A DNA stretch of 64,000 nt from Flexilinea flocculi (GTDB taxonomy: Bacteria > Chloroflexota > Anaerolineae > Anaerolineales > Anaerolineaceae). Where the stretch lies: NCBI RefSeq assembly GCF_001192795.1, contig NZ_DF968180.1, forward strand, positions 248,001 through 312,000, written 5' to 3'. Made by a program: the position numbers and the translations under genes. Positions 6,386 through 64,000 of the stretch are shown here, piece after piece. Under the pieces are notes generated by a model. The model searched no databases and was not told the DNA's origin. It was given only the letters and a program-made list of their open reading frames with translations. Within the stretch, counting starts at the first letter, position 1. Every line of letters starts with the position of its first letter.

Positions 6386-7989
6386 AGGGGAGATTCCTCC
6401 TGTGGAGTCGTTGAAGGATTTGTATTTTTTTCATCAGACATCTGATCTGCCATTGCCAATTCCAGAATGGATTCTTCAGTCGCTTCCTTTCCGATTAGTT
6501 CACCGGTGATTTTACCGTTTTGCATCACATAAATACGGTCAGAAAGACCAAGGATTTCGGGAAGCTCAGAGCTGATAAACATGATTCCCAGCCCTTGATT
6601 TGCGAGGTCATCAATCAAATGGTAAATTTCTGCTTTTGCTCCGACATCAATTCCGCGGGTTGGTTCATCTAATATCAGCAATTTCGGCTTTGCCGCCAGC
6701 CAGCGGGCGAGGACAACTTTCTGCTGGTTTCCACCGGAAAGTTTTCCGACTTCCTGCTTGAGAGAAGGGGTACGAACATTCAATTTTTCTATAAAATCCA
6801 TTGCAATAGATCGTTCTTTTTTACGGTTGACAAAATGCATCCGAGTGAGCTGTTTGATGATCGCCATTGAGGCATTCTCCAGAACACTTCGCATTAAAAT
6901 CAGTCCTTCGCGCTTGCGATCTTCCGGTGCCAGACCGATCCCTTTAGAAATTGCGTCATTCGCATTACGGATCGATACTTCTTTTCCTTCAATCAGGACT
7001 CTCCCGCTGTTTTTCTTCAGATCACCGAAAATGACCTTTGCTAATTCCGTTCGGCCTGCTCCAACGAGGCCGGCAAAACCGACAACTTCTCCTGCCTGAA
7101 TGTGAAAATTGATATTCTGGTGCCAGTTGCTGTACAGATTTTCAACGCGCAAAACTTCCTGCGCACCCATTGCCGGATTGCGTTTAAAAACATCTGAAAG
7201 ATCGCGTCCCACCATCAAATGAACGATATCGCGGTCTGTCAGTTCTTCTGCCGGTCGAACAGCGACTAATTCTCCATCGCGAAGAATAGCTACCCGGTCA
7301 CACAGGCGTAAGATCTCCTTAATGCGATGGGAAACGTAAATAATTGCAATACCATCATCGCGAAATTTGCGAACGAGGGTAAACAGTCGATCTACTTCTT
7401 CATCGGAAAGGGAAGATGTGGGTTCGTCGAGCGCTAAAACTTTTACGCCAGTTTTTAATATCCGCATAATTTCAACAATCTGGCGCTGAGCGGCTGAAAG
7501 CTGGTCTCCCATCAGATGAATCGGCAAAACATTCGAGAAACCATATTCAGCCAGACTTTTTTCAACTTGTTCATTTAATTTTTTTCGATCGAGGAATCCA
7601 AATCTTTTTGGTAATTCGCCTACCCAGATATTCTCCGCTACATCCACACCCGGGATGATTTCCGGCTCTTGATAGATAACGCGAACACCGGCTTTGTGTG
7701 CTTCCAGCGGATTTGCGAATGAAAGCTGCTGTCCATCCATTGAAATCGTGCCGGAATCCGGTTGATAGTCTCCATTCAGGATTTTCAGCAAGGTGGATTT
7801 TCCAGCGCCATTTTCTCCGACAAAAGCCAGCACTTCTCCTGGACGGATGTCTAAAGAAACGTTCTTTAATGCAATAACGTTCGGAAATGCTTTACAGATA
7901 TTGCGAATTTCAAGGGTTCCGGGTGGTTTTTGATTTTCTGAGAGCTTGGCTGATACTTGATTTAGGTCTGAGTTTGTCACATAAGTCAT
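6382..7989 (-). CDS. CUT2 sugar ABC transporter ATP-binding protein (RbsA/AraG family)
   Basis: 535 residues with two tandem ABC domains. The first has Walker A GENGAGKST (near residue 57), a degenerate signature LSAAQRQ, and LALDEPTSSL. The second lacks a normal Walker A (GLVGAGRTE) but has LSGGNQQK and LILDEPTRGID. This asymmetry is typical of RbsA/MglA/AraG. It energises the permease encoded directly downstream. The first about 25 residues form a polar extension before the first domain. The ribosome site is AGGA upstream of ATG 7989. A palindromic repeat and about 210 bp separate it from the binding-protein gene upstream. Confidence 0.95.
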   Translation of the reverse strand: MTYVTNSDLNQVSAKLSENQKPPGTLEIRNICKAFPNVIALKNVSLDIRPGEVLAFVGENGAGKSTLLKILNGDYQPDSGTISMDGQQLSFANPLEAHKAGVRVIYQEPEIIPGVDVAENIWVGELPKRFGFLDRKKLNEQVEKSLAEYGFSNVLPIHLMGDQLSAAQRQIVEIMRILKTGVKVLALDEPTSSLSDEEVDRLFTLVRKFRDDGIAIIYVSHRIKEILRLCDRVAILRDGELVAVRPAEELTDRDIVHLMVGRDLSDVFKRNPAMGAQEVLRVENLYSNWHQNINFHIQAGEVVGFAGLVGAGRTELAKVIFGDLKKNSGRVLIEGKEVSIRNANDAISKGIGLAPEDRKREGLILMRSVLENASMAIIKQLTRMHFVNRKKERSIAMDFIEKLNVRTPSLKQEVGKLSGGNQQKVVLARWLAAKPKLLILDEPTRGIDVGAKAEIYHLIDDLANQGLGIMFISSELPEILGLSDRIYVMQNGKITGELIGKEATEESILELAMADQMSDEKNTNPSTTPQEESPL

Positions 7990-8048
7990 AACACTTGTCC
8001 TGTAAGCGATTCGAAATATAAGAAGAATTTTATGTTATTGTATTGATA

Positions 8049-8063
8049 TTGCGCTCAGCGCAA
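8049..8063. repeat. Nested palindrome family, degenerate copy 3
   Basis: Only the stem top TTGCGCT/AGCGCAA (8049-8055 with 8057-8063) still pairs perfectly. The outer arm TGTTATTG/ACACATGG is decayed. Outer boxes remain: GCGATTCGAAATATAAG at about 8008 and CAAATTACAAAT at about 8109. It lies between the ATPase and binding-protein genes of one importer. Confidence 0.65.
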
Positions 8064-8157
8064 ATTAACACATGGTCATTTTCTCTCTTTTTTTCCAAAA
8101 GGCTTTTCCAAATTACAAATAACTGTTGTCTACTGCGGATTAGTCCGTAAACAAATT

Positions 8158-8189
8158 TTCAGGCGGACAGCTTACGCTATCCGCCTGAA
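8158..8189 (-). terminator. Hairpin after the AraF-like binding-protein gene
   Basis: TTCAGGCGGA pairs with TCCGCCTGAA around a 12-base loop, immediately downstream of the 8203-9198 stop, followed on the minus strand by AATTTGTTT. It probably ends most transcripts of the binding-protein gene and lets fewer continue into the ATPase gene, the usual way to make binding protein in excess. Confidence 0.7.
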
Positions 8190-8202
8190 TATAATCATTA
8201 AA

Positions 8203-9198
8203 TTATTTCGAGCAGTTGCCCACGGAAATGGCATCCATTAAATCTTTATAATTTGTTGGATCTACAATGGAGGTTGGAGCAAAGGATTTTTCCGGCGGAA
8301 CAACGCCATTGACGACTGCATCATGCAGTACCTGTGCTGCAGTATTGCCGACATCCAATCCGGAGATGAACAGACTGGCTTTCCAGCCGCTCGGTTGTCC
8401 GGCAGCCCATGGTTTACAGGCTTCATAAGCGCCCAATCCGACACCGATTATGTCGTCCGGTTTTGCGCCGGCAGTTGCCAAAGCGTTCAATGTACCCAGA
8501 ACACCTTCATCATTGCAGCCGAAGACTACCCAGTTCGTAATCTCGGGATGAGCGGTAATGATCGGTCCTGCTGCATCTTGTGAGGAGAGCGTTTCACCAG
8601 TGTAGGGAACTGAGAAAATCTGATCGTCGGTAACGCCAACCAATTTAATTTGTTCCTTCTCATTGTCTGTTCGGTCATTACATACGGATAGTGTTTGAAC
8701 TTCAACGGATAAAACACCCACTTTCTTGGCTGAATCATTCAGCCAGCCAGCTTCTGTCAACAGCTTACCAGCGGCTTCACCGACTTTCTTGCCCATGTCC
8801 TTGCCGTCGAATCCGACGAAAGGAACCGGTGCGCCGGCTTCATCCACGATACTATCATCGGTGGCAATCAGAACGACACCCGCATCTTTTGCGGCTTTGG
8901 CAATTGCCGGTCCAATAGTCTGATCCGGGACTGTAATTGCAATTCCTTTTGCTCCGGCTGAAATGGCATCATCGATCAGGGATACACCGAGCGCAGGATC
9001 CAATTTCGCATCGAACTTCTTTGCAGTTCCACCTAACTCCTCGGTTTTTGCTACAAAAGCGTTCTGCAAATCGATAAAGTACTGCTGATCAGCACTTTTG
9101 TTGATGACAACGTATAACGGCGCATCAGCGGCAATTACAGTTGCTGACAATGTGAGGAATACGATGGTCACCATAAAAACAGCAAATAATTTTTTCAT
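8203..9198 (-). CDS. Sugar ABC transporter substrate-binding protein (AraF-like)
   Basis: 331 residues with a Sec signal peptide (about 23 residues, cleavage after VIA-A) and no lipobox Cys. The mature part follows the E. coli L-arabinose-binding protein closely in layout: an SAGAKGIAITVPDQTIGPAIAKAAKDAG-type block near residue 80-105, VPFVGFDGKDMGKKVGE near residue 125, and PEITNWVVFGCNDEGVLG near residue 220. L-arabinose or a similar pentose is therefore the best guess. The gene is first of a unit continuing to the ATPase, permease and a URO-D-like protein. It has a strong AAGGAG site seven bases before ATG and a LacI-type operator about 76 bp upstream. The substrate is inferred; the CUT2 binding-protein assignment is firm. 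Confidence 0.9.
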   Translation of the reverse strand: MKKLFAVFMVTIVFLTLSATVIAADAPLYVVINKSADQQYFIDLQNAFVAKTEELGGTAKKFDAKLDPALGVSLIDDAISAGAKGIAITVPDQTIGPAIAKAAKDAGVVLIATDDSIVDEAGAPVPFVGFDGKDMGKKVGEAAGKLLTEAGWLNDSAKKVGVLSVEVQTLSVCNDRTDNEKEQIKLVGVTDDQIFSVPYTGETLSSQDAAGPIITAHPEITNWVVFGCNDEGVLGTLNALATAGAKPDDIIGVGLGAYEACKPWAAGQPSGWKASLFISGLDVGNTAAQVLHDAVVNGVVPPEKSFAPTSIVDPTNYKDLMDAISVGNCSK

Positions 9199-57974: not shown

Positions 57975-58913
57975 TTAGAACTGGTTCAATAAATAGCCAT
58001 ACCCTTCTGCTTCCATTTCGTCTTTGGGGATGAAACGCAGCGCTGCGCTGTTGATGCAATAGCGCAACCCTCCAAGTTCTTGCGGTCCATCCGGAAAGAG
58101 GTGCCCTAAATGCGAATCACCGCTGCGGCTGCGGACTTCAATTCTGGACATGTTGTACCGGTTGTCTTGTTCATAGGTTATCACTTCTTCCGCAATTGGT
58201 TTAGAAAAACTTGGCCAACCACAGTCGGAGGCAAATTTGTCTTTTGATATAAAAAGCGGTTCTCCGGTTACGATATCCACATAAATCCCTTCTTCAAAAG
58301 TATTCCAATACGAATTGGTGAATGGACCTTCCGTTCCGCTGTTCTGTGTTACATCCAATTGTATGGGTGTTAAACGCTTTTCTAATGTGCTTTCGTCCGG
58401 TTTGGGATATAGATCAGGATTAATCAGAGGTTTTTTTGCAAGATCCAGATCGATATGGCAATATCCGCCGGGATTCTTTTCGAGATAATCCTGATGATAT
58501 TCTTCTGCAGGGTCAAATCGGATCAGCGGCATCACTTCCACAGCGATTTTCTTTTTATATCTTGTTTGAATGCGAGCGATTTCGGCATCAATGACCGCTT
58601 TGTCCGCTTCGTTGACATAGTAAATGCCGGTTCGATATTGAGATCCAATGTCATTTCCCTGTCGATTGACGCTGGTTGGATCAATAATTCGAAAATAATG
58701 CTGCAGGATTGCGCTCAGGCTGATAATTTGCGGATCATATTCAAGTTTGACCGTTTCCGCATGGCCAGAATCGTTGTAGAGCAGATCCTCATAACTCGGA
58801 TTCTCGGTTTTCCCATTCGCATAACCGACAGTTATATCGACAATTCCATCAATTTGGGCAAAATACGCTTCAACTCCCCAAAAACATCCACCAGCAAGAA
58901 ATATGATTTCCAT
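57975..58913 (-). CDS. msrAB: Fused peptide methionine sulfoxide reductase MsrA/MsrB
   Basis: 312 residues. The MsrA domain comes first, [14 protein letters not shown] (catalytic Cys near residue 10) with YSYEDLL-like [18 protein letters not shown] and [10 protein letters not shown] (near 90). The MsrB domain follows from about residue 180, [31 protein letters not shown] (near 229) and [16 protein letters not shown] (catalytic Cys near 286). The zinc CxxC pairs found in many MsrB are not visible. The enzyme repairs both methionine sulfoxide epimers. AAGGAGGATCC gives a strong ribosome site. It stands alone between palindromic repeats. Confidence 0.95.
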
Positions 58914-59086: not shown

Positions 59087-59228
59087 TTTTTTCCCCCGAT
59101 TGATTTAAATAGCAAAGTTGATGTTTTGAATTACTGATATCGCGCAAAAACATTACACCAACAAAGAATCATTCCCATATTTCAAATAGCTGGAAAACTG
59201 GTTTCTATGTTGAATTCTTTACTTTATG

Positions 59229-59234
59229 TATAAT
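59229..59234 (+). promoter_or_regulatory. -10 box before the MFS pair
   Basis: TATAAT 25 bp before the ATG at 59259. It overlaps an in-frame ATG at 59226, which argues against that earlier start. No good -35 is seen. Confidence 0.4.
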
Positions 59235-59258
59235 AATGTGGAAGGATTACCCGAAACT

Positions 59259-60461
59259 ATGATTCAAAACTGGACTGCGAAAAAAAAAGAACTGGCAAAA
59301 AATCGGAAATTCTATGCCTTTATCTATTTACTTAGTTTCCTGACGATTGGACTGGAGTCCGCCGCACTGGGGCCGACGATGAAACTGCTTGCAGTATCAA
59401 CCGATAGCACGCTCGCTGCGGTCACCGTCTTTGTGACCATTAAATCGTTTGGTTATATGACCGGTTCCTTTATCGGTGCAAAATTTTTTGACCGTTTTCG
59501 CGGTCATCAGGTGTTGATTCTTAGTATTGCAACGATGACGGCCATCATGTTGTTTATCCCGTTTGCCGGCAGTTTCATTGCAGCCGTTATTCCGATGTTC
59601 CTTCTGGGTTTTGCCGAAGGAATTACGGATATCGGAGGCAATCTGATGATCATTTGGGTTTTTCAGGATAATCTGGCGCCCTATATGAACGCTTTGCATT
59701 TTATGTTCGGTTTCGGATCTCTATTAGCACCAATGATCACGGCGAGTTTTCTTTCATTTGAAAACAGTCTGCTGTTAACCTATTGGGTGATTGCACTGCT
59801 TTATCTCCCTTCCATGATCGGATTATCTCTGCTGCCGAGTCCGGAACGGATTGAGAGTACAACGCTGAAAGAAGAAAAAAACCGGCAGACTCGCTTGATC
59901 ATCCTCTTCTCATTAATATTTTTTGCTTATGTGGGTGTGGAAATCACCTTTGGAAACTGGATTTTTACCTATGCCAGTGAATCCAGACTGGCAACGGATC
60001 TTCAGGCCGCTTTCCTGAATTCAACGTTCTGGGGCTCATTTACAGCAGGCAGACTGATCGGTATCTTCCTGTCGAAAAAGGTCAAACCGAAAACTATGCT
60101 ACTGATAAACTTTACCGGAACGGTTTTCTGCCTTCTATTGTTGGTTCTGTTCAGGGGTAGTGTCACAATTTTATGGACAGCTTCGATGTTGCTGGGTCTT
60201 TTCCTGGCTACTTCCTATCCGACACTGATGGTTTTTGCCGGCAGTCTGTTTACAATTACCGGATCGATCACACGCTGGTTTATGGCTGGATCTGGTCTGG
60301 GTGTGTTGTTGATCCCATTTGTTATGACCTATCTTTTCGATAAATTGGGAATTCGTGTTGTACCAATTGTATTATTTATTGTCAGCCTGGTTGGATTGAT
60401 GAATTTGATGGTTATGCTGTTTTTCGCTGATAAAACGATACAAAAAACGGTGAAAAACTGA
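59259..60461 (+). CDS. MFS transporter, first of a tandem pair
   Basis: 400 residues and twelve membrane helices. It opens MIQNWTAKKKELAKNRKFYAFI and has GLESAALGPTMKLLA (near residue 33), SFGYMTGSFIGAKFFDRFRGH (near 65, the MFS loop 2-3 motif GxxxDRxxGH), GFAEGITDIGGNLMIIW (near 118) and GLFLATSYPTLMVFAGSLF (near 315). It resembles FucP-like sugar permeases of the FHS group. Start 59259 gives exactly the same N-terminal length as the paralogue, and the -10 box makes 59226 unlikely. One-base overlap with the next gene. Confidence 0.9.
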   Translation: MIQNWTAKKKELAKNRKFYAFIYLLSFLTIGLESAALGPTMKLLAVSTDSTLAAVTVFVTIKSFGYMTGSFIGAKFFDRFRGHQVLILSIATMTAIMLFIPFAGSFIAAVIPMFLLGFAEGITDIGGNLMIIWVFQDNLAPYMNALHFMFGFGSLLAPMITASFLSFENSLLLTYWVIALLYLPSMIGLSLLPSPERIESTTLKEEKNRQTRLIILFSLIFFAYVGVEITFGNWIFTYASESRLATDLQAAFLNSTFWGSFTAGRLIGIFLSKKVKPKTMLLINFTGTVFCLLLLVLFRGSVTILWTASMLLGLFLATSYPTLMVFAGSLFTITGSITRWFMAGSGLGVLLIPFVMTYLFDKLGIRVVPIVLFIVSLVGLMNLMVMLFFADKTIQKTVKN

Positions 60462-61675
60462 TGATCCACACTCCGACCTTATTTGAATCCAGACTTCAAA
60501 AACATCGAATTTTTTATGCCATTATCTATCTGCTTAGTTTTTTGGCGATTGGACTCGAATCAGCCACGTTAGGTCCAACCCTGAAACAACTTTCCATTGC
60601 AACAGGCAGTTCGCTGGCTGCGGTTACGACCTTTATCGCGATCAAAGCACTGGGATATACGGCGGGTACTATTATCGGATCGAAATTATTCGACCGATAT
60701 CAAGGGCATAGGATCATGGTGATCAGCATCGCATTGATGTCTTTTGGAATGCTGATGATCCCTTTTGCTCGAAATTTTGTGGTGGCGGTTTCATTGATCA
60801 CAGTTTTAGGATTTGTCGAAGGTGTGATTGATATCGGTGGCAATCTCCTGATTATGCGAGTATTTCAAGACAATCTGCCTCCCTATATGAATGCCCTGCA
60901 TTCTATGTTTGGGGTTGGCTGCCTGTTTGCGCCGCTTATTACCGCACATTTTATGACTGCCGGAAACAGTCTGCAAATGACTTATTGGGTAATTGCTTCC
61001 TTCTTTATCCCTTCAATGGTTGGATTTTTGCTGCTTCCAAGCCCGCCAGTGATCTCAGCCGTCAAAATGGAAGAAAGCGGACGAAAACTGCATGATCAGG
61101 TTGTCGTCTTATTCGCAATGTTGTTTTTTGCATATGTAGGGGTTGCAATCACTTTTTCAAATTGGATTTTTACTTATGCCAGCGAATCGAAAATGATGTC
61201 AGATATTTCTGCTGCGTATCTGAATTCACTTTATTGGGGTTCATTCACGTTGGGTAGATTGATTGCAGTTTTCCTTTCCCGTAAAATTGAACCGAAAAAG
61301 CTGCTGATCTGTGATTATATCGGATCCGCTTTAACGTTAGGTTTCATGATGATTTTCAGAGGGAATTCTGCAGCGTTATGGATCGGCACAGTGTTCCTCG
61401 GTTTATTCCTGGCAACCGTTTATCCGACAATGATGGTCTTCGCCGGTTCGCTTTTCCCGGTTACTGGTTCGGTCGCAAGCCGCTTTATGACCGGTTCTGG
61501 AATGGGTGTGCTGACTATTCCATTCCTGATGACCTACCTGTTCAATCGCATCGGAATTTCTATTGTACCGGTTGTCTTATTCATAGTCGGTTTGATTGGC
61601 TTGATCCTGTTCTTGTTGACGTTGCTCCTGATTGAAAAGAAAAAAGTCCGAAATAATCCATTTCCCGAAATTTAA
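60461..61675 (+). CDS. MFS transporter, second of a tandem pair
   Basis: 404 residues with twelve helices and matching landmarks: GLESATLGPTLKQLS, GYTAGTIIGSKLFDRYQGH, GFVEGVIDIGGNLLIMRVF, GLFLATVYPTMMVFAGSLF. It is clearly a duplicate of the upstream gene, diverged along its whole length. ATG shares its first base with the TGA stop of the first gene, so translation is coupled. The two may have different substrates or work together; unusual for MFS is coupled expression of two close paralogues. Substrate unknown, sugar-type by resemblance. Confidence 0.9.
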   Translation: MIHTPTLFESRLQKHRIFYAIIYLLSFLAIGLESATLGPTLKQLSIATGSSLAAVTTFIAIKALGYTAGTIIGSKLFDRYQGHRIMVISIALMSFGMLMIPFARNFVVAVSLITVLGFVEGVIDIGGNLLIMRVFQDNLPPYMNALHSMFGVGCLFAPLITAHFMTAGNSLQMTYWVIASFFIPSMVGFLLLPSPPVISAVKMEESGRKLHDQVVVLFAMLFFAYVGVAITFSNWIFTYASESKMMSDISAAYLNSLYWGSFTLGRLIAVFLSRKIEPKKLLICDYIGSALTLGFMMIFRGNSAALWIGTVFLGLFLATVYPTMMVFAGSLFPVTGSVASRFMTGSGMGVLTIPFLMTYLFNRIGISIVPVVLFIVGLIGLILFLLTLLLIEKKKVRNNPFPEI

Positions 61676-61700
61676 TAAAACTCTTTTGTGATAATAGCGA

Positions 61701-61757
61701 AAATATGTTGTTACATGATGTTTGTGTAGAGCACAGACATGGTACAACAACATATTT
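61701..61757. repeat. Nested palindrome family, copy 11
   Basis: AAATATGTTGTT (61701-61712) pairs with AACAACATATTT (61746-61757), and further in TTTGTG pairs with CACAGA; about 21 of 26 positions match. CCCATATTTCGAGTTATTG (61767-) is the outer box. The 61676-61924 gap holds no gene. Confidence 0.8.
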
Positions 61758-61924
61758 AACCGCCCATATTTCGAGTTATTGGGTATACCGATTCAGCAGT
61801 TTTATCAATGATTTGATTCTGTCATTGAATTTTATAAATACTTCTCAATCAATATTGACTTTTTAGGATGTGAGTTGTATATTTACATATTGAAAATATT
61901 CTATATGAAAAGGATGACAGAAAC

Positions 61925-63358
61925 ATGGCATCGGAGACTTCCTTGAAGTATTTCAATGATAATGCACCTGATTGGGACAATATGCGGACTGCTTTTTTCA
62001 GCGAATCAGTTCGCGAGGCATCGATTGCAAAGGCATGGCTGCGCCCCGAAATGGCTGCTGCGGACATTGGCGGCGGGACGGGTTTTATAACTGCCGGGAT
62101 AGCTCCATTAGTTCGTGAAGTTCATCTGGTTGACCAATCGTCGTCTATGATTGAAATCGCTCAACAGAAACTCTCTTCTTTCACAAATATTCGTTATCAT
62201 GAGGCGGATGGAAGACAAATTCCGCTTCCGGATGGTGCTGTGGATGTAGTTTTTGCGAACATGTACTTGCATCATTGCACGGATCCTTTGCTTTCAATTC
62301 AGGAAATGGTTCGTATTCTGAAACCGGGTGGCAGAATCATTATTACGGATATGGATGTCCATCCGTTTACCTGGTTGAAAGATGAAATGTCGGATGTCTG
62401 GATGGGATTTCAACGCACACAGATTTATGACTGGTTTAAAGCAGCTGATCTTGTCAATATCATAATCGATTGTACCGGACAGGATTGCTGCGCTCAATCT
62501 CACTGTGAAGTAATAGGGGAATCGGATCGAAATGCAAAGATCAGTATTTTTATTGCAACCGGAACACGAAGACAAATCAGACAGAAAGAAGTGAAGAATA
62601 CTTATCGTGTCATTGCTGAAACACCAACGGGTTGTTGTGATTCGATTTCCTCAAATCAATGCTGTTGTACAGCGCATTCGGATATCTTTCAATCCCCTGT
62701 GAATTTTTCTACCGGTTATGACCAGGAAGAAAAAGCTGCAATTCCAAGAGAATCAGAAGCGCTATCCCTGGGATGCGGAAATCCGACGGCGATGGCATCG
62801 TTGAAACCCGGTGAAGTTGTTTTGGATATCGGATCAGGCGGAGGTGTCGACTCCTTCCTGGCTGCCCGAAAAGTTGGTCCGTCAGGAACGGTGATTGGTG
62901 TTGATATGACACCAGCCATGCTGGAGAGAGCCAGAGCATCTGCTCAGAAAAATGGATATTCCAATGTTGAATTTCGATTCGGCCAGGCAGAATCACTGCC
63001 GGTTATTGCCAATTCTGTCGATGTAATTATTTCGAATTGTGTTATCAATTTATGCGAAGATAAAGGACAGGTTTTTCAAGAGGCCTTTCGAGTTATAAAA
63101 CCAAATGGACGGCTGGAAGTCAGTGACATGGTCAGCAGTAAGGCGCTGCCGGCACATATTCAGGCAGCGAATTGGTCCGGTTGTGTATCCGGCGCATTGC
63201 CGGAAGGTGAATACCTGGATTTAATTCGGCAAGCTGGTTTCATAGATATCAAAACTAATCGAAGTACCAGCGCGGGTTTCATAGAGGATGTGGATGTATA
63301 TTCCGTGATTGTTTCGGCAGTAAAACCGGTGAATCAGGAAAATTGCTGCTGTCAGTAA
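61925..63358 (+). CDS. arsM: Double-methyltransferase fusion: SAM methyltransferase plus ArsM-like arsenite methyltransferase
   Basis: 477 residues. The N-terminal SAM domain (residues about 1-215) has [15 protein letters not shown] (near 47), [13 protein letters not shown] and the FANMYLHHC motif. A Cys-rich linker ([12 protein letters not shown] near 183-194, GCCDS and QCCCTAHSD near 237-252) follows. The C-terminal domain is ArsM-like: [21 protein letters not shown] (Cys284), [26 protein letters not shown] (Cys372) and [10 protein letters not shown] (Cys420), the Cys set of ArsM, ending NCCCQ. It would methylate trivalent arsenic with SAM; the N-terminal domain role is open. ATG 61925 has AGGA nine bases upstream. 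The arsenical permease gene follows after 24 bp. Confidence 0.9.
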
Positions 63359-63382
63359 AAAAAATATTGTTGAGGTGGTCTT

Positions 63383-64000
63383 ATGGAAATTACTACGTTT
63401 TTATTGAAATTGCTTCAGGGAGGGCTGGGAAACCTTGCTTCTTACCTGGCAGCACACGTATTGCTATGCCTGGTTCCGGCATTTTTTATTGCCGGCGCTA
63501 TGACTGCACTGATCCCGAAAGAGAGCGTAACACGCTTCTTAGGCCGCAATACGCCAAAATTTATATCTTATCCAGCTGCTGCGCTGGCTGGATCGGTTCT
63601 GGCAGTTTGTTCCTGCACAATTGTGCCCCTGTTTGCCGGTATTTATAAGAAAGGAGCTGGACTTGGTCCTGCCATTACTTTCCTGTTTTTTGCTCCGGCT
63701 GCGAACATATTGGCTTTGGTGTATACCGGCGGCGTGATTGGTCCGGATCTGGCTTTTGCCCGACTTTTCCTCTCACTCGCATTTGGAATAGGAATCGGGT
63801 TGATCATGGCACTAATCTTCAGCCGTTCCGACGTTGCGCATGACAAAGCTGCGGATGAGGGATTTGCTGGAAAACAAAATCAAGGTATGCGAAAAATTGT
63901 GGCGGCATTTTTGCTGATTTTAGTAGCTTTATTGCTTGCTGGAACGCTTAAAGTCAATCTGTTAACGGATTCTTATGCTCAGATCACGCTGCCAGTATCC
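63383..64000 (+). CDS. ArsP-like permease (PF03773), 3'-truncated by window end
   Basis: 206 residues visible, frame open to the end. It opens MEITTFLLKLLQGGLGNLAS, with a helix-rich body containing IAGAMTALIPKESVTRFLG (near residue 38), GSVLAVCSCTIVPLFAGIYKK (near 72-92) and FLFFAPAANILALVYTGG (near 100). The CSCTxxPLF and FxFAPAANI motifs are the marks of the DUF318/ArsP permease family, some members of which export organoarsenicals. It lies 24 bp after the ArsM fusion, with GAGGTGG seven bases before ATG. Together they suggest arsenic methylation and export. The late part after residue 150 begins a second helix bundle. Confidence 0.9.
   Translation, partial: MEITTFLLKLLQGGLGNLASYLAAHVLLCLVPAFFIAGAMTALIPKESVTRFLGRNTPKFISYPAAALAGSVLAVCSCTIVPLFAGIYKKGAGLGPAITFLFFAPAANILALVYTGGVIGPDLAFARLFLSLAFGIGIGLIMALIFSRSDVAHDKAADEGFAGKQNQGMRKIVAAFLLILVALLLAGTLKVNLLTDSYAQITLPVS

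Follow-up and report, generated by a model that had tools for sequence, protein, structure and literature searches.

Why should an arsenite methyltransferase (ArsM) carry a second, complete methyltransferase domain in the same polypeptide? This question is raised by a gene of Flexilinea flocculi (Anaerolineae, Chloroflexota) located in the window analysed here (the whole stretch of 64,000 nucleotides, G000:C2:248001-312000, of a 3.5-Mb genome in three contigs). A first-pass annotation had described an ArsM fused to an extra S-adenosylmethionine (SAM) domain, and had proposed that the fusion could carry out successive methylations or hand arsenic from cysteine clusters to the active site.

The two-domain protein

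The open reading frame (61925-63358, + strand, ATG start) encodes a protein of 477 aa in which three parts can be distinguished: (i) an N-terminal companion methyltransferase domain (residues 1-215; 61925..62569, +), with the SAM motif D47-G49-G51-G53, an LHH motif at residues 115-117 and, inside the domain, a second CC pair, Cys188-Cys189; (ii) a Cys-rich stretch (62570..62710, +), with CC at 237-238 and CCC at 246-248; and (iii) a C-terminal ArsM domain, stop codon included (62711..63358, +), with C284, C372 and C420 and a variable tail, NCCCQ. In a domain-model search, Methyltransf_11 and Methyltransf_31 each match the protein in two separate stretches, the former best at residues 47-140 and the latter at residues 294-417. 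The protein has two complete SAM-binding domains, and the observation made in the first-pass annotation is confirmed.

An intact two-domain protein is present in 18 of 101 related genomes (the window's own included), and the other 17 proteins share 53-91% identity with that of the window, the closest being from the same genus (G010, 91% identity). The same 101 genomes also contain one frame-shifted fusion (G022) and two ArsMs with a degenerate N domain (G030 and G046), all of which were left out of the 18-row alignment of intact fusions; short matches at contig ends (such as G049) were not counted among the resolved fusions. The search for the same domain architecture, which had been suggested as a check, was positive, and a lone oddity or a mis-assembly was rejected, since the fusion is kept in many genomes.

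The SAM motifs of both domains are invariant in the 18 intact aligned fusions. Between the window gene and that of the sister species (one pair only, 91% identical), dN/dS is 0.139 for the N domain and 0.134 for the C-terminal half. AlphaFold models obtained from three-row and five-row alignments (pLDDT 64 and 62, respectively) are of too low quality to locate Cys188 or the interface between the domains. For the model with pLDDT 64, the best fold matches are the tandem phosphoethanolamine methyltransferases 5wp5 and 5wp4 (16-19% identity), a likeness which, because of the weakness of that model, is taken as one of architecture only.

The ArsM half

The whole protein matches model NF008823 with 334.3 bits in two stretches, the best of which aligns residues 220-450 to model positions 8-234. 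By itself, the C-terminal half reaches 289.8 bits (cut-off 263), and its best solved relatives are ArsM structures. Its residues C284, C372 and C420 align with cysteines in 5evj and 4kw7, are equivalent to C72, C174 and C224 of CmArsM, and are invariant in all 18 aligned fusions. Judging from these motifs, the C-terminal half, in which none of the three arsenic-binding cysteines is missing, can be considered a normal ArsM. In general terms, a single-domain ArsM (NF008823 / PRK11873) corresponds to this half, with its SAM motif, its three arsenic-binding cysteines and its Cys-rich N-terminal stretch, whereas the window protein has an extra complete methyltransferase ahead of it in the same chain.

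The CC and CCC clusters had been interpreted as part of a linker between the two domains. The clusters are indeed there, but the linker is not a special one, since the NF008823 match begins at residue 220 and covers it: the stretch is the usual N-terminus of a prokaryotic ArsM, and the single-domain ArsMs L067 and L068 have a Cys-rich N-terminal stretch of the same kind. Within it, C246 and C248 are invariant (18/18 aligned fusions). Similarly, the window protein does end in NCCCQ, but this ending is not conserved: after residue 468, two or more cysteines are found in 11 of the 18 aligned fusions, one in a single fusion, and none in six. A role as a special arsenic relay was rejected both for the linker, because this stretch lies inside the ArsM model and occurs in single-domain ArsMs, and for the tail, because it is absent or short in 7/18 aligned fusions. 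The idea of a hand-off between cysteine clusters is thus left with no special basis.

The N-terminal domain

Profile alignment with hhalign relates the N domain to the ArsM half with 99.9% probability. In this alignment, M113 and F162 of the N domain sit at the positions of ArsM C372 and C420, and no counterpart of C284 is found within the aligned part; the set of three arsenic-binding cysteines is not present. The N-terminal half scores 46.5 bits with NF008823 (cut-off 263), and none of the best 25 NCBIfam models listed for the N domain is over its cut-off. A tandem duplication of ArsM was rejected in view of the other residues at two of the Cys positions, the score far below the cut-off and the existence of relatives of its own.

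These relatives conserve D47-G49-G51-G53, D70, A111-N112-M113, L115-H116-H117, H146, W159-x-G161-F162 and C188. Conservation was counted by column in 27 fused and 28 other rows, leaving out L155, L142 and the truncated rows L148 (with an apparent frame shift close to the end of its contig) and L150 (at a contig end). Among the fused N rows, D47, G49 and G53 are each present in 27/27 and G51 in 26/27; H116 and H117 are each found in 26/27 fused rows and in 28/28 of the others. C188 is present in 25/27 fused and 25/28 other rows: the two fused rows without it are degenerate N domains, and the three other rows have a TGA codon there. As for the rows left out, the distant L155 and L142 lack C188, L148 has it, and L150 ends before that position. 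By its motifs, the N domain is no second ArsM; it belongs to a small methyltransferase family of its own, with a near-invariant Cys188. The domain is degenerate in four of 30 fused loci (G030, G046, G115 and G178), and in the truncated row G387 the SAM motif is lost as well; it appears, then, to be dispensable somewhere.

Cys188 and in-frame TGA codons

Three genomes (G351, G392 and G400) encode a deep-branching protein of the N family with a TGA exactly at the position of C188, the homology running on to the end of the protein (L134, near 2018-2641; L135, near 7954-8571; and L136, near 8006-8629). A search of 14 genomes of their family yielded these three TGA forms and no others. A tRNA-Sec is over cut-off in the three genomes and SelB in two of them (the G351 assembly is 88% complete); in the genome of the window, neither tRNA-Sec nor SelB is over cut-off, and its protein has Cys188. 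A hairpin 3' of the TGA, a putative SECIS element, is the same in the three loci, which are near-identical, and no more stable than shuffled sequences (z -1.5, -1.2 and -0.6). Selenocysteine at the C188 position is likely in these three genomes, though not proven, which makes the TGA-bearing N-family methyltransferase a candidate new selenoprotein.

The TGA-bearing genes of L134 and L135 adjoin, by eye, genes resembling DsrE, MBL-rhodanese and FAD sulfide-quinone reductase proteins, and that of L136 is followed, also by eye, by a similar set of genes. Since the cluster of these relatives looks sulphur-related, the N family does not seem to be only about arsenic, and the substrate may vary across the wider family.

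Separately, three ArsM-like sequences (L069:352-915, L071:8003-8548 and L072:7545-8210) have an in-frame TGA at or near the ArsM C420 position, in the context WTG*IAGAL (NWFA*IAGA in L072); they correspond to the known selenoprotein-ArsM kind.

Distribution, gene arrangements and joining history

A class-wide search yielded an N-domain match at E<=1e-20 in 33 of 396 genomes, and in ten of these 33 (the window's own included) the N domain is followed by ArsM in one frame. In a sample of the phylum, a match was found in 9/400 genomes, again including the window's own. In one of these nine genomes, G562, the order is reversed: a single frame of 565 aa (L139:6944-8635) begins with ArsM and ends with the N domain. 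This frame is flanked by ArsR matches on both sides, and ACR3 is matched downstream of it. No relatives were found in sequence scans of a viral contig collection.

The N-family loci not fused to ArsM (n=34) were defined as N matches with E under 1e-12 and no ArsM in the same frame, excluding two fragments of L059, whose fusion is frame-shifted, and one match in L053 to a generic methyltransferase; three of the 34 are pieces of one genome (G062), and the neighbourhoods of the distant phylum matches G698, G780 and G790 fall outside the count. The following groups can be differentiated: (i) 14 loci whose fetched stretch, of up to 16.6 kb, also contains an ArsM; (ii) three fused to ArsR, one of them close to the window's N domain (L137, 48% identity) and two distant (L142 and L155, about 30%); (iii) six with an ArsR gene but no ArsM; and (iv) 11 with neither, several of which lie on short contigs. 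Regarding the loci fused to ArsM, an ArsR gene lies less than 200 bp upstream in 24/30, a count which is partly circular for 12 of them, as the ArsR profile was made from 12 upstream ORFs picked by eye plus the ArsR of the window. In the remaining fused loci, ArsR is found some 5 kb downstream (window and sister species), a match lies about 5 kb off (one locus), or there is none (three loci). The arrangements of the N domain in ars contexts are, in short, four: as a separate gene in the same stretch as arsM, ahead of ArsM in one chain, behind ArsM in one chain, and joined to ArsR. In addition, distant N-like domains (29-34% identity) were seen at the C-terminus of proteins resembling ECF sigma factors (L114, L115 and L116).

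In the ArsM tree, a single branch (83/93; 81% of bootstrap trees) separates the 30 fused ArsM domains from all the others. In the N tree, 25 of the 27 fused N domains form one clade (100/97), along with two truncated rows, and the other two (G207 and G123) are placed together with an N domain that is fused to ArsR (100/99); L155 entered this tree as a stand-alone domain, its frame having an ArsR match too. The reverse fusion of G562 falls outside the fused groups in both trees. Since the fused N domains are split in their tree and G562 lies outside, the N domain and ArsM have been joined at least twice, perhaps three times. The history of the fusion perhaps also included one swap of the N domain.

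The ars cluster around the fusion

The gene that begins 24 bp after the methyltransferase ORF encodes an ArsP-family permease (PF03773; 63383..64000, +), of which the window holds the first 206 of 493 aa (complete at L009:11384-12865). Its match to PF03773 reaches 219.6 bits (cut-off 32.3), and the models of SaoE and of the SO_0444 Cu/Zn exporter match it as well, with scores that do not reach the respective cut-offs. The first-pass annotation had assigned it to a family that exports organoarsenicals. The family holds, and the permease does lie in an arsenic cluster, but organoarsenical export can be predicted at family level only, PF03773 being broad and the SaoE and SO_0444 models matching as well.

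Past the permease, the genes of L009 encode, in this order, a thioredoxin of the MTH895/ArsE family (84 aa, over cut-off), a second protein that resembles thioredoxins (161 aa), a DsbD_TM/CcdA-like protein (225 aa) and the arsenite exporter ACR3 (352 aa; 438.9 bits against a cut-off of 282.8). They are followed, on the opposite strand, by a 99-aa ArsR with an ELCAC motif. The sister species has the same downstream gene order. The permease, the ArsE-type thioredoxin, the CcdA-like protein, ACR3 and ArsR together identify the surroundings as an ars cluster.

Upstream of the fusion gene (61676..61924, +), the last ~70 bp are near-identical in the sister species and include ATATTTACATATTGAAAATAT (6-bp arms), a possible operator or promoter. 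Another palindrome, TCATGATCAAGTGATCGTTGATCATGA (10-bp arms), is located upstream of arsR (L009:17089-17336); it is largely kept in the sister species and might be an operator. Just upstream of the fusion gene, at 59226-61675, there are two similar MFS transporters in tandem, also found in the sister species, which match the TsgA transporter model below its cut-off. Further upstream, the - strand (57975-58913) encodes a protein of 312 aa that resembles, by eye, a fused MsrA-MsrB methionine sulfoxide reductase.

Proposed function and alternative explanations

ArsM binds As(III) through three thiols, while MAs(III) needs two and DMAs(III) only one. Having one near-invariant Cys, often with a second beside it, and two near-invariant His, the N domain would suit these later substrates. 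The reading that we favour, giving it about an even chance, is that the two domains form one enzyme of the arsenic methylation pathway, whose N domain probably further methylates the arsenicals made by ArsM. The ArsM half, with its motifs intact, would take As(III) on its three cysteine thiols and methylate it. The N half would act as a companion SAM methyltransferase with another active site (it lacks the ArsM cysteines, and has LHH and a Cys188 that is probably Sec in three relatives), taking MAs(III) or DMAs(III) from the ArsM half and adding another methyl group. With both domains in a single chain, toxic MAs(III) would stay free for less time; whatever escaped would leave the cell through the ArsP-family permease, and inorganic arsenite through ACR3. 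From sequence comparison we infer the catalysis of the N domain, its arsenical substrate and the methylation step. The successive methylation put forward in the first-pass annotation is plausible, given that the SAM motif is kept in most fusions, that the unfused family is often ars-linked and that the best fold matches, albeit of a low-confidence model, are tandem methyltransferases.

The fusions to ArsR in three loci, that of L137 being close, bring in a different explanation: the N domain could bind SAM/SAH as a sensor or serve as a structural module, tuning ArsM or a neighbouring ArsR with no methylation of its own. The degenerate N domains that remain attached in four fused loci would fit this explanation, as would the reported binding of TtArsM to the regulator TtSmtB (PMC8649762) and the existence of distant relatives that are ArsR-methyltransferases, encoded on alphaproteobacterial plasmids beside metF (about 27-33% identity to the N domain; of the two examined, both adjoin metF and one also metH). 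Nevertheless, we consider it unlikely: the ars-linked branch has LHH and Cys188, both absent from the two met-linked, ArsR-fused proteins aligned; the change from Cys to probable Sec in three genomes suggests a reactive residue; and the N domain is as constrained as ArsM in the one species pair compared.

A similarly low probability is given to the N domain being a working methyltransferase for a non-arsenic acceptor (a thiol, a persulfide, Se, Te or Sb) under metalloid stress. The sulphur-type neighbours of the TGA-bearing relatives, as identified by eye, and the 11 of 34 non-ArsM-fused loci in which neither ArsM nor ArsR was detected speak for it, but the domain has been joined to ArsM at least two separate times, in both orders, and 14/34 of these loci have ArsM in the same stretch. 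Least likely, and in our opinion very improbable, is a vestigial fusion in which adjoining arsR, methyltransferase and arsM genes ran together with no functional consequence: these genes adjoin in many examined genomes, so that a lost stop codon could join them, and the N domain is degenerate in some fused loci, but the equal dN/dS of both halves (one species pair), the intact SAM motif of most fused rows and the repeated joining in different orders argue against it.

More tentatively, at somewhat less than even confidence, it is proposed that the N domain founds a new family of ArsM-companion methyltransferases, which would carry out one of the later methylations by means of a single ligand, Cys or Sec, and would have been incorporated into ars systems on several occasions.

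Relation to known systems

Two reported proteins show that arsenic can also be a substrate for methyltransferases that are not of the canonical ArsM type. TtArsM of Thermus thermophilus HB27 (TTC0109), with an ArsR-like and a methyltransferase domain, is described as producing MMA and DMA in vitro and as having a single Cys, the catalytic C77, and two histidines (PMC8649762). Compared by description only, it resembles the N domain in that it is a methyltransferase but no canonical ArsM, in its link to ArsR/SmtB and in its few cysteines; the spacing from GxGxG to D also agrees (G114..D135 in the published account of TtArsM, G49..D70 in the N domain), which is a weak match. However, TtArsM has an ArsR-like N-terminal part, and no ArsR model is among the matches listed for the window protein. 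The second protein, ArsRM of Brevundimonas sp. M20, is reported, on the basis of a kit assay, to methylate As(III) (PMC10190100); it lies in a met operon, a context of the same kind as that of the alphaproteobacterial relatives.

The plant phosphoethanolamine N-methyltransferases 5wp5 and 5wp4 have, as the window protein does, two class I methyltransferase domains per chain, but their substrate is unrelated to the arsenic pathway. The domains of these enzymes share successive methylations. The selenoprotein fusions NF041536, NF041537 and NF047649 also join an ArsM-type domain to another domain and contain selenocysteine, but, according to the model names, their partners are DUF2284, AhpD or UXPK-star and no methyltransferase; the window protein is far below the cut-offs of the three models.

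As to the literature, the excerpted text of a survey of 343 ArsM orthologues names one fusion, that of arsM with SelD in Naegleria (PMC5552862), and that of a review of ars genes mentions ArsR-ArsC and AqpS-ArsC fusions (PMC6205960). Selenoprotein forms are on record for ArsM and for another methyltransferase, MduS, with the motif CxxU (as outlined in PMC13188914). At the level of titles and abstract openings, no published description of a fusion between ArsM and a companion methyltransferase was found. The window protein may, in consequence, be considered a known ArsM with an apparently undescribed companion domain, and the N family may deserve a name of its own.

Implications for arsenic methylation

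According to the excerpted text of PMC5552862, ArsM activity needs no other protein, and toxic MMAs(III) is indicated as the main ArsM product of anaerobes (PMC11653729, in summary). The fact that some relatives carry the N unit as a separate gene adjoining an arsenic gene suggests that arsenic detoxification has in this second unit a new functional component. The change from Cys to probable Sec in relatives points to a precise residue for mutation. If a dedicated second enzyme does carry out the later steps, the proportions in which anoxic soils and sludges yield mono-, di- and trimethylarsenic would vary according to whether arsM has this companion, which is readable from genomes.
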